A stretch of DNA of 10,536 bases from Filomicrobium sp. (GTDB taxonomy: Bacteria; Pseudomonadota; Alphaproteobacteria; Rhizobiales; Hyphomicrobiaceae), in the NCBI GenBank assembly GCA_021775655.1, contig JAJFHK010000491.1, positions 1-10,536 on the forward strand, written 5' to 3'. This document shows positions 1,878 to 7,257 of the stretch, one piece after another; the first letter of the stretch is position 1; every line of letters begins with the position of its first letter. Below the pieces are notes generated by a model. The model did no database searches and had not been told where the DNA came from. It saw only the letters and a program-made list of their open reading frames with translations. The position numbers were made by a program, and so were the translations under genes.

Positions 1878-3344
1878 TCAGACGGCGTCGTATTTGTGAA
1901 CGGGTTGCGCGTATGCCCAACCGACGTTGTAGGCCATAGCTCCATGCCAAGCCCCAAACCCAATCATGATCCCGAATGCCTCCGCATACATGGCGAGTGA
2001 AGAGTCGAGCGGCAAGTCGCCCAACTCGATTAGTGCAGCTCGAATGAACAAGAAAAACAAAAAGGCAGCTGACACTCCACAAATTGCTCCGGCAAAAATT
2101 CGAACCGAACGGAGAAGTGTTCTGGCACTATGCGCACCGCTGGCCACACTCGCAGCGCCTGCCAATCCCGCCGACAGAATTGCTATCAGAATGATTTCCC
2201 GCAGCTCTGGACTCTTTGCGCTGCCGACAAGTACATCGAGGGTGAGTTCGTTGAACATTTTGGAGTTGCAAGCGAGTTCTCCGTAAGGTGCGAACCACCA
2301 CCTTCCCAGAACGGCTATCAGTACAAAAATCAAACACGTTGCCAGCGGCCGCCACCAAGCATGACGGTCACTGTACCACCATGTCCCAAGTCCAAGGACG
2401 GAACCGAAGAGCAGTGATGTTACAAGACTGATCGGCTCATAACGAACATTGACGAGTTCTCTTGAGCCAGGAGCTATGCCGTCAAATAGATCGAATGCCA
2501 GCAGAGCGCTCGCGAAACCACTTGCCACGCCAAGGGTCGCAAGGATTCGAATTGGCCTGTTACTTGTTTGGTGAAATTCGAAACGGTCGGTGAAATTGCT
2601 GTTTGACCACGGGATTTGTTCGGACTTTGTCGCTTTGTGGACATCACGCGCCACCCGTTGGAACATATCGAAGATATCAAGGCCGCGGGTTCCAATGTGC
2701 CGCGACATGCCGTGACTGAATGGGCTCATGCCATTGGGTGGGCCGTCGCTTGCAACACCTCCCGGATCAGCTGCAAATGCGATCAGCGTCCGGCCGATAC
2801 TTTCCAGTGACGACCGCGACAAGCCGCGGCTTGCTGCAACTGTCTGGGTTTCGCTATCAAAGTTTAGCGGAGCAGTTGCCTCAGGAGAGAACTGACCGCG
2901 AGAGATCGACATGCTATTTACGGGATATAACCCGCCATTGTCGCGGCAGGCATCCAGAAAAACCAACTTATAATTGGCGCACGAGGCCATCTGATCGAGG
3001 ACCCATTGAACCGGGACCAGGTCGGCAACAGGAGCCTGCGAGTAGCGGTCAAAATCGATTGGAACAATATAATTCTCACCGGCAAGCTGGAGGCCATGAC
3101 CTGAATAATAAAATAGGATTGCTTCGTTACAGCCTCCAACCGCGCTGAAATAGTTCTTAAGATGGCTCTCTGTGCTTTTGCGATCGAGGTCGGTCAATCG
3201 CAAAACGCTAAAGTCGAGTCCCTGCAACTGCGCTGCGATCGTATGAACGTCGCGCACCGGGTTATTGAGCGGTGTGCTGCCGTAATAATTTGCGTTGCCG
3301 AGAAGAATGGCATGTCGGCGAAGCGTCGGGCGACTGGAAATCAT
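1878..3344 (-). CDS. Caspase-like (peptidase C14/metacaspase) protease with a six-helix membrane domain
   Basis: This is a predicted cysteine protease anchored in the inner membrane. Numbering from the upstream TTG at 3365 (495 residues), the caspase fold covers about 16-270: HAILLGNANYYG is strand 1, LNNPVRDV the following helix, YYSGHG carries catalytic His90, and VFLDACRDN carries catalytic Cys140. Both are intact, so it should be an active protease rather than a pseudo-enzyme. The C-terminal half has about six hydrophobic helices (near 272-292, 313-331, 339-357, 388-410, 420-442, 459-484) and no domain I recognise. An even helix number predicts a cytoplasmic protease domain. I chose ATG 3344 (residue 8 of the long form), with GGTGGA 9 bases upstream; TTG 3365 with AGGA 7 bases upstream is nearly as good. 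It lies downstream of the TIR-WD40 gene with an 80-base gap (60 from the TTG), so probably one operon. Likely role, by inference: effector of a defence or cell-death module. Confidence 0.93.
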   Translation of the reverse strand: MISSRPTLRRHAILLGNANYYGSTPLNNPVRDVHTIAAQLQGLDFSVLRLTDLDRKSTESHLKNYFSAVGGCNEAILFYYSGHGLQLAGENYIVPIDFDRYSQAPVADLVPVQWVLDQMASCANYKLVFLDACRDNGGLYPVNSMSISRGQFSPEATAPLNFDSETQTVAASRGLSRSSLESIGRTLIAFAADPGGVASDGPPNGMSPFSHGMSRHIGTRGLDIFDMFQRVARDVHKATKSEQIPWSNSNFTDRFEFHQTSNRPIRILATLGVASGFASALLAFDLFDGIAPGSRELVNVRYEPISLVTSLLFGSVLGLGTWWYSDRHAWWRPLATCLIFVLIAVLGRWWFAPYGELACNSKMFNELTLDVLVGSAKSPELREIILIAILSAGLAGAASVASGAHSARTLLRSVRIFAGAICGVSAAFLFFLFIRAALIELGDLPLDSSLAMYAEAFGIMIGFGAWHGAMAYNVGWAYAQPVHKYDAV

Positions 3345-3424
3345 TGCAACAAATCCACCATTCAAAATTGTATCCTACCGTCATGATGGCAGGTGGAAAA
3401 AAGTGGTCACTTGGCAGGTTGCGA

Positions 3425-6400
3425 TTAGCCCCCGGGATTGTCGTTGCCGAAGAGCTGATCGAAAAAGCCCAGCGCTTGCTCCGGCCAGGTCGGGGGCGAG
3501 GCATGCTCGGGACTGTAGGGGTATTTGTTTTGCGAGTAGCACCATCTAGGCGGCTTCGAGCTAAGGTAGAAGTGCTTGCGCTTAGATTCGGAAAGACAGT
3601 AAGGCGCAGCATTCCGGGACTCGGCCACCACCTGATCAATGCTGTTAAAAACCCGCCACAGCCTGACAGTCTTGTCAGCCGAAGCGGTTGCAATCCGTTT
3701 ACCGTCGTTGGACACAGCAACCGAGTTCACCGCGTCATCGTGACCTTTAAGCACGGCAATCTGCTCACCTGTATTCACGTTCCACAATAGGATCAGTTTA
3801 TCGCTCGATGCGGAGGCGAGCCGCAATCCATCGGGGAAAAATGCAACTGATTTGACCCCATATTTGTGCCCCTTGAATATTGCGAGTTGCTCTTTGCTGT
3901 CGACGTCCCACAGCCTGACAGTTCCGTCGTTTGATGCCGAGGCGAGCTGCGTCCCGTCCGGGGAAAACACGACTGAATTCACAAAACCCGTATGGCCTTT
4001 TAGGTTGGCGATACGCGTGCCACTCTCGACATCCCACAGCTTGACATTCCCATCACTGGACCCCGACGCAAGCTGCGCCCCATCGGATGAGAAAGCTATT
4101 GAATCCACACGGGAGGCCTGATCCTTGAGCACTGCTTTTTCGTCGAATGTGTGCGCGTCCCAAAGCCTGATCGAGTTGTCACTGGACGCAGTGGCGATCC
4201 ATCGCCCGTCAGGGGAGAAGGCGGCAGAGTTTACCGGCTGAAAATGACCTGCAAGTTTAGCGATCTCCCTGCCTGAGCTTGTCTCCCAGATCCTCGCCGT
4301 TCTGTCATTTGATGCCGAAGCAATCTGCGTCTCGTCCGGGGAAAAAACCGCTGAATTGACCCAATTGTCATGGCCGTCCATGACTGAAATTTGCCGACCT
4401 GTTGTTGCGTCCCACACCCGCAGTGAATTGTCTGGTTCGCCAAATAGGCTGCCTGATGCCGAAACCAACTTCTTTCCGTCTGTCGAATACGCGACCGAAT
4501 TTACATAGTTGTGATGGTTATTGAGAACCTGTGGTTCTGTGGGTGCGGTTGCGCCGGAAAGTTCCCAATGCAAAATGTCCCCGGGAAATGCGCCTGAGAT
4601 CAGAAAGCGGTCATCTGGGGAAAAGGTGACTGAATTGACCCAACTCTCATGTCCAACAAGGACTGTAAGCTGCTTACCAGTCGCCACGTCCCACAACCGA
4701 ACCGTTCTGTCGCTTGAACCCGAGGCGACAAGCTTTCCGTCCGATGAGAAGACAACTGAATTGACCTGTTGATCATGGCCGGTGAGTGTCATCAGGTGCC
4801 TTCCTGTAACAGCATCCCATAGCCTGACAGTGCGATCACCCGATGCTGTGGCAAGCTGTTTGCCTGTCGGAGAAAATGCGATTGAAGTTAGCTGGAACGC
4901 ATGACCCTCGAGGCGAGCGATTTCTTCGCCTGTCAGTGCATTCAGAAGTCGGCCCGTTGTGTCCGACAAGGGTTGCAAAGCAATGCGCAATCCATCGATG
5001 GAGAATGCCATAGACGCCTCCCACCCTTTATCACTTCTGAAATTTAGCAATTCGGCACCTGTTCCGGTGCTCCAAATCCTGACCGTTTTATCATGAGATG
5101 CGGAAGCAAGCCTCGTCCCGTCCGGCGAAAAGACAATCGATCTGATGAAACTTGCATGACCATTCAATTCGACTACTTCTGCACGTGTGGCCGTCTCCCA
5201 TATTTTGATAGTGCCGTCGCTCCAGGCCGATGCAAGCAACTTTCCGTCCGGTGAAAAAGCAACTACATCTGTGGCACCTAGCGAGGAACTTGTTATCTCG
5301 AAGGAGGCGACCTCTCCACTTGGTTGAAGCTCCCATAAGCGGATCGTGCCGTCGATAGAGGCGGATGCCAACAGACGCCCGTCTGGAGAAAACGCAACTT
5401 CTTGAATTCCATTTGTATGGCCCCTCAGCTCAGCGATTGGCTTGCCGGAATCGATGTGAAGGAGGTTTATGACCTTGCTGTCGCGCGACAGCGCGGCAAG
5501 TTGCGTCCAAAGTGGCGAAATCGCAAAAGTCCTGGAATTGCCCTCATGCCTGCCGAGCATACGTACTCTAAGATCCGGTATAGTGCGCCACGCACGAAAG
5601 GCTGACTTCAGCGACAATGCTGCCTGAGGACTATAGGGAAGAAACCTTCGAACCGGATCAAGGCTTTGAGGCGCAGGCAGGCCCTCCAACGCTAATAGCA
5701 TTGCCTCGACAGGCCGGCCGTCGATGAGGCTTTCATCAGAAAGCCTTGCAATGAACTCGGAACGATTGAGATTGGTTTGTTCCCAGAACTGGTACACGCC
5801 CCATGCAATAGCGGCGAGGCTGATGAGGCCGACCACCAAGCCACCAAACGATATTCGCTGCCACTTAGCACGCGCAGTTTGGGCAGTGGCAACTTGCTCA
5901 AGCCGCTTCCGTTCAGCTTCCAAACGCCGACTCTCGGCGGCTTCGCTTTCAGCAATAAACTCATGCACCAGATCTGAGATATCGGGCGCGGATTTGGGCT
6001 TTCGGGAGAGCGATTGCATGGCTTGCGGAATTTGTTCACCCAGGAGCAACCCACTTTGCACGCGATTACCTGCATCCCATTCCACGGCCCGGGTAATAAG
6101 ACGGTTGTGTTGTCTGTGCCAAAGAACATCCAAGTCCAGCACAGCGATCAATTCGTCGAGGGAAGCCGCAAAGCCGCTATCGTCGGTGAAGTCGAGCTTG
6201 ACGTTCAGCCCTGACAGACGCGGAGGTGCTTTCAGAAAATCAATCTCCGTGCGCAAAACTGCAACGATGCGCTTGCCCAACCCCCGCGCGAAAGCGATTT
6301 CCTCGTCGCAGACTTTGCTGGTCGCGCTGAATGGTGAGACGACAAAGACCATTACATCGGCTGCAGTAATCATCTCCTGGATGCGCTGCCACCATTCGTC

Positions 6401-6613
6401 CTCTGCGGCAATGCCCGTCGTAATATTGTCAGGGTCGTAAGCCGCTTGGTCAAAATTGCAGTGATACCCGCGAGCTGTCAGGGCGTCCGCCAACTGACGC
6501 ACAAAATCTCCATCCTTACGCGAATAGGAGATAAAGAGCCTCAACCGTTCTGACTGACTGCCGCTTCCCGAATTAACTTCAGCAATCACTTTTCCACTCA
6601 CTACGATAGGCAA
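3425..6613 (-). CDS. TIR domain - membrane helix - WD40 repeat protein
   Basis: This is a 1062-residue multidomain protein. The TIR domain spans about 23-160: RLRLFISYSRKD is strand A, EWW...ADVMVFVVSPFSATSKVCDEEIAFA the later core, then KRIVAVL. Glu105 (or Glu104) in CDEEI aligns with the catalytic Glu of NAD-cleaving TIRs such as SARM1, so NADase or nucleotide-cyclase-like activity is plausible. A charged helix (about 211-250) leads into one membrane helix (about 254-277). A helical segment with LLALEGLP (about 306-312), common in bacterial WD40 conflict proteins, comes next. Some 15 WD40 repeats run to about 988, followed by a tail with YCL...PPRWC...YPY, a motif I associate with this protein class. 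The start is uncertain: TTG 6613 has no clear ribosome-binding site, and GTG 6589 has AGTGGA upstream. The gene is first in a two-gene unit with the caspase-like protease. Probable role, inferred: sensor and signal generator. Confidence 0.93.
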   Translation of the reverse strand: MPIVVSGKVIAEVNSGSGSQSERLRLFISYSRKDGDFVRQLADALTARGYHCNFDQAAYDPDNITTGIAAEDEWWQRIQEMITAADVMVFVVSPFSATSKVCDEEIAFARGLGKRIVAVLRTEIDFLKAPPRLSGLNVKLDFTDDSGFAASLDELIAVLDLDVLWHRQHNRLITRAVEWDAGNRVQSGLLLGEQIPQAMQSLSRKPKSAPDISDLVHEFIAESEAAESRRLEAERKRLEQVATAQTARAKWQRISFGGLVVGLISLAAIAWGVYQFWEQTNLNRSEFIARLSDESLIDGRPVEAMLLALEGLPAPQSLDPVRRFLPYSPQAALSLKSAFRAWRTIPDLRVRMLGRHEGNSRTFAISPLWTQLAALSRDSKVINLLHIDSGKPIAELRGHTNGIQEVAFSPDGRLLASASIDGTIRLWELQPSGEVASFEITSSSLGATDVVAFSPDGKLLASAWSDGTIKIWETATRAEVVELNGHASFIRSIVFSPDGTRLASASHDKTVRIWSTGTGAELLNFRSDKGWEASMAFSIDGLRIALQPLSDTTGRLLNALTGEEIARLEGHAFQLTSIAFSPTGKQLATASGDRTVRLWDAVTGRHLMTLTGHDQQVNSVVFSSDGKLVASGSSDRTVRLWDVATGKQLTVLVGHESWVNSVTFSPDDRFLISGAFPGDILHWELSGATAPTEPQVLNNHHNYVNSVAYSTDGKKLVSASGSLFGEPDNSLRVWDATTGRQISVMDGHDNWVNSAVFSPDETQIASASNDRTARIWETSSGREIAKLAGHFQPVNSAAFSPDGRWIATASSDNSIRLWDAHTFDEKAVLKDQASRVDSIAFSSDGAQLASGSSDGNVKLWDVESGTRIANLKGHTGFVNSVVFSPDGTQLASASNDGTVRLWDVDSKEQLAIFKGHKYGVKSVAFFPDGLRLASASSDKLILLWNVNTGEQIAVLKGHDDAVNSVAVSNDGKRIATASADKTVRLWRVFNSIDQVVAESRNAAPYCLSESKRKHFYLSSKPPRWCYSQNKYPYSPEHASPPTWPEQALGFFDQLFGNDNPGG
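3650..5551 (-). repeat. About 15 tandem WD40 units with a 42-residue (126-base) period
   Basis: The closing signatures of the units (such as TVRLWDV) fall near residues 381, 424, 468, 510, 553, 595, 637, 679, 730, 772, 814, 856, 898, 940 and 982. From 730 to 982 the step is exactly 42. The first unit (INLLHI) and the fifth (GRLLNA) are degenerate. One unit, between 679 and 730, is about nine residues longer than its neighbours, with a GSLFGEPDNS loop. Fourteen good units would make two seven-bladed propellers; the fifteenth is unexplained. The repeats are diverged in both protein and DNA, so this is not a recent expansion. Confidence 0.9.
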
Positions 6614-6872
6614 TTTGAAATTAAGTAGACGACCCGAATCGATGGCCTGAGGTGAATTTGGAAAGGCATCTGGACCGCGCCAACCTCACGAATGCAAATG
6701 TGCCAGAAGAATTGCAGGTTCACAACGGACCTCAGTATTCCTGAAATGCTGGAACGGAATATCCTGATCGAGCCGCTCTGCACAATTCGTCTGCATTTGC
6801 CTAAGAGGCACTTTCGAGCGGGCATGCTGTTAGTAAACTGACTGCTCAGTTCAATCGTTGGCGCGCGCCCAG
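6614..6872. other. Non-coding stretch upstream of the TIR-WD40 gene
   Basis: This stretch of about 260 bases holds no gene I can support. It should contain the promoter of the minus-strand TIR/caspase unit, but I cannot identify convincing -35 and -10 boxes just upstream of 6613. Short open frames on both strands show no family resemblance. Confidence 0.5.
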
Positions 6873-7116
6873 ATGCCATACGTCAACATCAAGATCACAA
6901 GAGAAGGGGGCGATAGGTGAGGTGAACAGAACGAAAAGCTGATCGTCGGCGTCACCATGGTCTTGCAAGAGTTCCTCAATTAAGAATCCGGCAACGACAC
7001 ATGTGGTTATCGAAGAAGTCCACCTCGACAGTTGGTGGATCGGCGGCAGGCCCGTCACGGAGTGGCGCGCAAAAATACGTGGGAAGAGCAAATATATGTC
7101 GGTGTCGCATGGTTGA
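6873..7116 (+). pseudogene. Decayed tautomerase (4-oxalocrotonate tautomerase family)
   Basis: Family members are small enzymes of about 60-80 residues that use the N-terminal proline left after Met removal to tautomerise keto/enol acids. Reading from ATG 6873 gives MPYVNIKITREG, the family's N-terminus with the would-be catalytic Pro. An in-frame TGA at 6918-6920 breaks it. The same frame resumes with EKLIVGVTMVLQEFLN, then meets TAA at 6981. Dropping one base there (the T at 6981) gives KNPATTHVVIEEV followed by a W-IGG-PVTEWR stretch, the family's C-terminal half, running on to TGA 7114-7116. The order and spacing of these blocks match the family closely, with about two extra residues around the first stop. 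There are at least two inactivating lesions, so I call it a pseudogene. Two sequencing errors in so short a gene would be the alternative. The longer minus-strand ORF over it is a shadow. Confidence 0.85.
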
Positions 7117-7212
7117 TCCTAGTGACCGCGCCAGCTATCGCCCCCTGATTGCCGAATATTCTGAGCTCAGAGCTTTCGAATGACTGCGGTAGACAAGAAT
7201 TCGACTTAAAGA

Positions 7213-7241
7213 TTGACACAGCGAGCGCTATCTAGAACGAT
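7213..7241 (+). promoter_or_regulatory. Possible sigma-70 promoter for the ribbon-helix-helix gene
   Basis: A perfect TTGACA -35 hexamer lies at 7213-7218. With a 17-base spacer the -10 would be AACGAT (7236-7241), only three of six consensus bases. Its place, about 27 bases before the start codon of the next gene, is right for a promoter. The -10 is weak, so confidence is low. Confidence 0.3.
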
Positions 7242-7257
7242 TCAAACAAAAGAATTT

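Follow-up and report, generated by a model that had tools for sequence, protein, structure and literature searches.

The window analyzed here, an entire contig of 10,536 bases (C436; GenBank accession no. JAJFHK010000491.1) from a Filomicrobium sp. draft genome, carries two adjacent genes, one encoding a TIR-linker-transmembrane helix-WD40 (TIR-TM-WD40) protein and the other encoding a membrane caspase. With roughly even confidence, we read them as two distinct modules of conflict type occupying a variable genomic site: a TIR receptor with a periplasmic WD40 part and an independent membrane caspase. An earlier prediction made from the window alone (here, the original prediction) had proposed that the two genes might form a single immune or cell death unit resembling type IV Thoeris. 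That the TIR and caspase genes form one system was weakly supported, and on present evidence a chance neighborhood of the two is more likely.

The TIR, WD40, and Peptidase_C14 domain matches that define the two proteins (Table 1) were far beyond chance. The TIR_2 domain scored 67.1 bits against a curated cutoff of 28 (E = 2.6e-18). Its residue Glu105, located in the motif VCDEEIAFA, fell in a column where 35 of 36 aligned TIR sequences (window included) have Glu, and we take this residue to be catalytic by analogy to the TIR family. The WD40 match was stronger still (E = 6.7e-146), with 14 repeats detected by a profile built from the protein itself. In the caspase, His90 and Cys140 were invariant in three full-length caspases and at least 90% conserved across 11 aligned rows. 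These results uphold much of what the original prediction had described, namely, an N-terminal TIR domain with a plausible catalytic Glu105, a sensor-like WD40 repeat in the same chain, and, directly downstream on the same strand, a caspase-like protease with an intact His90/Cys140 dyad. The membrane anchoring proposed for both proteins also stood, given the TIR helix and the hydrophobic peaks of the caspase. The caspase had additionally been described as carrying six transmembrane helices; four of these correspond to clear hydrophobic peaks, and two weaker peaks make six helices possible rather than demonstrated. The PADLOC models matched were of ThsB and Argonaute-TIR type for the TIR part (best, 1.6e-8) and a "caspase" model for the caspase (3.5e-8). 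A sequence search of the PDB matched no solved structure with the TIR part and only MALT1 chains with the caspase (10 sequences; best E = 4.7e-9).

TABLE 1 Features of the window and the evidence on which they were placed
Feature	Position	Strand	Evidence
Response regulator (end only), then histidine kinase	Left side of window	Plus	Pfam matches
Caspase gene, then TIR-WD40 gene (left-to-right order)	Middle of window	Minus	
Membrane caspase gene, 495 amino acids, TTG start (alternative ATG at 3344)	1878..3365	Minus	Open reading frame
Caspase membrane domain, residues ~272-473	1947..2552	Minus	Four clear and two weaker hydrophobic peaks; family only in own genome (G000) and G008
Peptidase_C14 (PF00656, caspase) domain, residues 16-262	2580..3320	Minus	E = 1.9e-33; placed identically in genus-wide Peptidase_C14 scan
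Cys140 codon, dyad	2946..2948	Minus	Motif LDACR, conservation
His90 codon, dyad	3096..3098	Minus	Motif SGHG, conservation
Intergenic gap, 59 nt	3366..3424	Minus	No terminator-like site found in it
TIR-linker-TM-WD40 gene, 1062 amino acids, TTG start (frame open to 6685)	3425..6613	Minus	Open reading frame and profile matches
Cys1006/Cys1025 pair after last WD40 blade, proposed disulfide	3539..3598	Minus	19-spacing in 10/23 WD40 members; invariant in six rows
WD40 region, residues ~390-987	3653..5446	Minus	WD40 profile matches
Single hydrophobic helix, residues 254-276	5786..5854	Minus	Hydrophobicity; helix in 28/35 relatives
Glu105 codon, expected catalytic glutamate	6299..6301	Minus	Glu in 35/36 aligned rows
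TIR_2 (PF13676) domain, residues 27-156	6146..6535	Minus	E = 2.6e-18; placed identically in genus-wide TIR_2 scan
Ribbon-helix-helix protein, glyoxalase-type protein, 175-amino-acid protein (without Pfam match), GMC oxidoreductase (in order)	Right side of window	Plus	

The recurrence of the pairing was evaluated in the neighborhoods of relatives of the TIR gene. A TIR-linker query matched in 28 of 149 related genomes, 37 of 397 genomes of the order, and 17 of 398 genomes of the phylum (the sets overlap), and a caspase query matched in 96 of the 149 related genomes. We read 58 stretches, 52 of which had a TIR-linker match spanning 180 or more residues; the six without one (L074, L077, L079, L083, L084, and L161) were excluded, and four further genes (L165, L167, L168, and L169) brought the total to 56. 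Of the 52 stretches, 51 extended for 1.5 kb or more on one side, 37 did so downstream, and 34 did so in both directions; some neighbors are therefore hidden by contig ends. Using a caspase profile built in house from matches to the window caspase, we found that none of the 56 TIR-gene relatives had a true stand-alone caspase gene within 3 kb. Two relatives had a caspase at a distance of 4.9 kb (L067) and 5.8 kb (L065). One match to the caspase profile beside the TIR gene of an Agrobacterium relative (L145) was discounted, as the open reading frame overlaps annotated IS66 genes on the opposite strand.

The caspase family also lacked the pairing outside the window. Of the 397 genomes of the order, 2 carried its membrane domain, in three genes in total (two copies in the own genome and one in the sister genome G008). 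Among 385 genomes of the class, the own genome was recovered together with short weak matches in two others (E = 7e-5 and 2e-4), and a pattern-based scan across 84,980 species genomes yielded 11 caspase loci, with the membrane part covered in one, an Alphaproteobacteria draft genome. The membrane-domain family was seen only in this genus. The two full-length relatives, which share 43% and 40% identity with the window caspase, both adjoin a membrane protein of ~211 amino acids and a long protein (L033:6543-14005 in G008 and L032:2610-5469 in the own genome). The long protein in G008 contains Big_9 (Ig-like), GH19, PG_binding_1, and Peptidase_C11 (clostripain) domains, and its counterpart in the own genome is cut off by the contig end. 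The ~211-amino-acid protein occurred in 2 of 9 genus genomes, the two that hold the caspase family. Because the two copies elsewhere share a neighbor set, the caspase family has a partner set, and this set does not include a TIR gene. Caspase and clostripain neighbors at these two loci may represent an envelope system of this genus. Searches of mobile elements with the window caspase gave no match in phages, no relative among 164 stretches that fit a pattern in a viral-contig collection, and 254 matching plasmid records, none across more than 80% of the query.

Recurrence was the test that the original prediction had itself named for a TIR/caspase unit, and it went against that unit: the pairing was absent from all 56 TIR relatives, and both full-length caspase relatives have another partner. 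Within the genus, we recorded 52 TIR_2 and 15 Peptidase_C14 matches in nine genomes. The window pair was the only TIR/caspase pair within 5 kb, the next being ~8 kb apart (G001), although contig ends may hide others. Random placement at ~950 genes per Mb predicts 0.08 adjacent pairs, compared with the one observed. A single pair that was singled out as remarkable offers weak evidence either way about a link. As a separate observation, the 4.1-Mb sister genome G008 contained 25 TIR_2 matches, compared with 0 in three other genus genomes.

Several observations weigh against two separate modules. The genes are codirectional, with 59 nt between the TIR stop and the TTG start of the caspase gene (80 nt to the ATG) and no terminator-like site between them. 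This arrangement is operon-like, and the genes may be cotranscribed. For a TIR gene placed immediately before a caspase gene in the same orientation, the chance expectation in the genus is only ~0.02. Additionally, two TIR-linker proteins among the 56 relatives are fused to a caspase-like domain without the catalytic cysteine (L086:10565-12268 and L102:9275-10999), and in one excluded stretch (L083:7273-15291), a gene for a 2103-amino-acid TIR-nSTAND1 protein is immediately preceded on its strand by a caspase gene that also encodes a peptidoglycan-binding domain. Leaving this stretch out thus removed a case that favors the original prediction, though one of another architecture.

A rival explanation is a functional pair working as in type IV Thoeris, with the TIR domain released by the WD40 part and a NAD-derived signal activating the membrane caspase, so that proteins are degraded and the infected cell is stopped. 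In type IV Thoeris, a caspase-like protease is switched on by the TIR-derived signal N7-cADPR, the two genes being in one operon (Rousset et al. 2025, cited through PMC12847820). The window genes are likewise adjacent, codirectional, and 59 to 80 nt apart; the catalytic sites of both the TIR and the caspase are intact; and besides TIR_2, the TIR part had an additional weak match to ThsB_TIR (E = 1.5e-5, above its cutoff). TIR and caspase-like domains also occur together in L083, L086, and L102. Against a functional pair stand the lack of repetition in 56 TIR relatives (which are relatives of the window TIR, not of the Thoeris TIR), the other partner of the caspase family elsewhere, and the caspase itself, in which no signal-binding domain was recognized among Pfam matches and the C-terminal part is a membrane domain. 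The likeness to type IV Thoeris is one of layout: the window TIR domain sits in a 1062-amino-acid membrane WD40 protein, the caspase carries a multihelix membrane domain, and the pairing was seen once. We consider a functional pair possible but unlikely. If the pairing is functional, it would represent a membrane-bound form of TIR-to-caspase signaling.

A membrane helix was found in 28 of 35 TIR relatives. Lys and Arg were more numerous before the helix than after it in 42 of the 45 members with a clear helix (window included), with 2 ties and 1 opposite case. The positively charged side of a membrane helix faces inside (the positive-inside rule), and the bias read with this rule would place the TIR domain inside and the C-terminal part outside. 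Moreover, Cys1006 and Cys1025 are the sole cysteines in ~790 residues of the window protein, which fits a periplasmic disulfide. Exactly two cysteines followed the helix in 13 of the 23 WD40 members with a helix. In 10 of the 23, the pair was spaced exactly 19 residues apart, just after the last blade and in a context like RCL...PPxWC; in L103, the spacing was 20. The pair was invariant in a six-row alignment and was also present in a relative from a metagenomic viral collection (L165). In one relative (L145), the WD40 part is followed by an M23 domain of peptidoglycan-peptidase type. This domain also points outward, though it looks degenerate, having lost motif residues as judged by eye. From sequence features of this kind, the WD40 part is probably on the periplasmic side. 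This probable location is the most useful property of the protein and was absent from the original prediction.

Alternatively, the WD40 part could be cytoplasmic, with the helix forming a hairpin, a peripheral anchor, or a buried segment and the cysteine pair being structural only. WD40 proteins in general are mostly cytosolic. The exact cysteine pair was absent from 13 of the 23 WD40 members, and some members are cysteine rich (10 cysteines in L103 and 18 in L168), both of which also speak against a periplasmic placement. The cysteine control was thin: of six WD40 open reading frames without a TIR match, one was a fragment of the window gene and two belonged to one frameshifted TIR relative, leaving three independent controls (5 to 6 cysteines). 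A cytoplasmic WD40 part is nevertheless clearly unlikely given the Lys/Arg bias across the family, the exactly spaced pair in 10 of 23 members in a domain otherwise free of cysteines, and the M23-type domain that follows the WD40 part in one relative.

The TIR-TM-WD40 architecture recurs, with three or more WD40 matches in 23 of the 52 TIR-linker relatives. The region after the helix varies across the family and includes WD40, FGE-sulfatase, Sel1, DUF1353, WD40 plus PDZ, and WD40 plus Peptidase_M23; the last combination is found in an Agrobacterium plasmid gene annotated as a DD-metalloendopeptidase (L145:5884-8898), which encodes a TIR-TM-WD40-M23 protein. Around 12 WD40-type relatives, 94 neighboring open reading frames were identified and 48 were scanned. 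No Pfam family was common to more than 2 of these 48 (among the best 25 of 91 families), a result that does not support the nearness to defense genes expected in the original prediction. In PADLOC, the models found in two members were a kinase-type model and two others (among the best 25 of 90 families). No fixed partner was thus seen around the WD40-type relatives, and the TIR gene resembles a module of one gene. Two individual loci merit description. At that of the closest TIR-TM-WD40 relative (L149:452-6972; 48% over residues 13 to 341), three open reading frames come after the TIR gene in the same orientation: a Prok-JAB gene, a frame of 189 amino acids without a Pfam match, and a ThiF/E1-like gene (ubiquitin-like conjugation) that matches E1-E2 models in PADLOC. 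A contig of the viral collection (L165:6444-16006) holds two TIR genes, a small TIR-WD40 one and a full TIR-TM-WD40 one that has the cysteine pair, together with a patatin gene and a gene judged integrase-like by eye. In phages, the TIR-WD40 protein matched three records, in each case through the WD40 part only.

Animal Toll-like receptors carry leucine-rich repeats outside, one membrane helix, and a TIR domain inside. If the proposed topology holds, the window protein shares this geometry, with repeats outside, one helix, and TIR inside, and differs in its reversed domain order, its WD40 repeats in place of leucine-rich repeats, and its bacterial TIR_2-type TIR domain. We therefore use the term inside-out Toll-like receptor for what we read as a periplasmic WD40 sensor joined to a putative cytoplasmic NADase. 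Such a receptor would cross the inner membrane once, with a cytoplasmic TIR NADase, a helical linker, the helix, and periplasmic WD40 propellers closed by a C-terminal disulfide. The WD40 part might sense something outside the inner membrane (phage or envelope disturbance), upon which the TIR domains would cluster and cleave NAD+, leading to depletion or to a signal. TIR self-association is described as activating NADase function in PMC12847820. The sequence itself shows the gene order, the domains with their catalytic residues, the helix with its charge bias, and the cysteine pair, and the genomes read show no recurrence of the pairing; the periplasmic side of the WD40 part, the Cys1006/Cys1025 disulfide, NADase activity, activation by clustering, and a defense role are what we infer for this protein. 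The caspase would be a membrane-anchored protease that is probably independent of the TIR protein, with no shared pathway required. If the topology is true, these proteins would form a recurrent class of bacterial TIR receptors with sensing on the outer side of the inner membrane and signaling within the cell, reaching the geometry of animal Toll-like receptors through another domain order.

Comparisons with described bacterial systems place the two proteins near known families. Like bacterial TIR proteins with repeat or sensor domains (PMC9153377), the window protein has an N-terminal TIR_2 domain with a catalytic Glu and C-terminal WD40 repeats; it differs in having a linker and one helix instead of a nucleotide-binding domain and in that its repeats are probably outside. 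The caspase resembles prokaryotic metacaspases (PMC3501461) in its Peptidase_C14 domain with a His/Cys dyad. Membrane helices occurred in 15% of the metacaspases surveyed there; the window caspase differs in its multihelix C-terminal domain, whose relatives were found only in this genus in the searches made. System 4 of Kaur et al. 2020 (PMC7159879) also comprises two membrane-associated genes with a caspase as the 3' gene. Its 5' gene encodes a short EACC1 domain protein with one conserved transmembrane helix, whereas the window 5' gene encodes a TIR-TM-WD40 protein and the C terminus of the window caspase is a membrane domain. EACC1 was not among the Pfam matches listed for the window (best 25 of 65) or for the TIR protein, and no EACC1 profile was run by itself. 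Caspase-type neighbors of WD40 genes have been reported in Cyanobacteria (PMC5587647). No account of "TIR-WD40" or "periplasmic WD40" was found in the open-license papers searched.

Another explanation is that neither gene serves defense and that both act in envelope stress, development, or phage-unrelated cell death. The window flanks contained no defense gene as judged by Pfam matches, the neighbors of relatives belonged largely to metabolic and regulatory Pfam families (among the best 25 of 91), and the other caspase copies adjoin a peptidoglycan-binding/clostripain protein. Set against this are the patchy distribution of the TIR-linker (28 of 149 relatives), the variable site, the viral-collection copy (L165) with an integrase gene nearby, and the E1/JAB-type neighbor beside the closest relative (L149), and we consider a role outside defense distinctly improbable. 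Very unlikely is a full bacterial counterpart of Toll-like receptors in which a periplasmic, disulfide-closed WD40 part senses phage or envelope attack, the TIR domain makes a NAD-derived signal, and the adjacent caspase has been recruited as executioner in this lineage.

The site of the TIR and caspase genes is variable. The sister genome G003 has both sides of the site: the kinase end, at 81% identity, and the stretch that runs from the ribbon-helix-helix gene through the GMC oxidoreductase gene, at 79% over 3.1 kb. In place of the TIR and caspase genes, the 2.8 kb separating these sides carry a LysR-type regulator and two further genes (named by eye). In five further genus genomes, DNA similarity ends at the kinase end. 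The TIR and caspase genes have a lower G+C content (0.53 to 0.54) than their flanks. However, values from 0.53 to 0.57 occur in six other contigs of the own genome, a draft of 3.19 Mb in 529 contigs that is 70% complete, so G+C content says little about foreign origin. Upstream of the TIR gene, ~640 bases (positions 6614 to 7255) without a convincing gene may hold a promoter or remnants of other genes.

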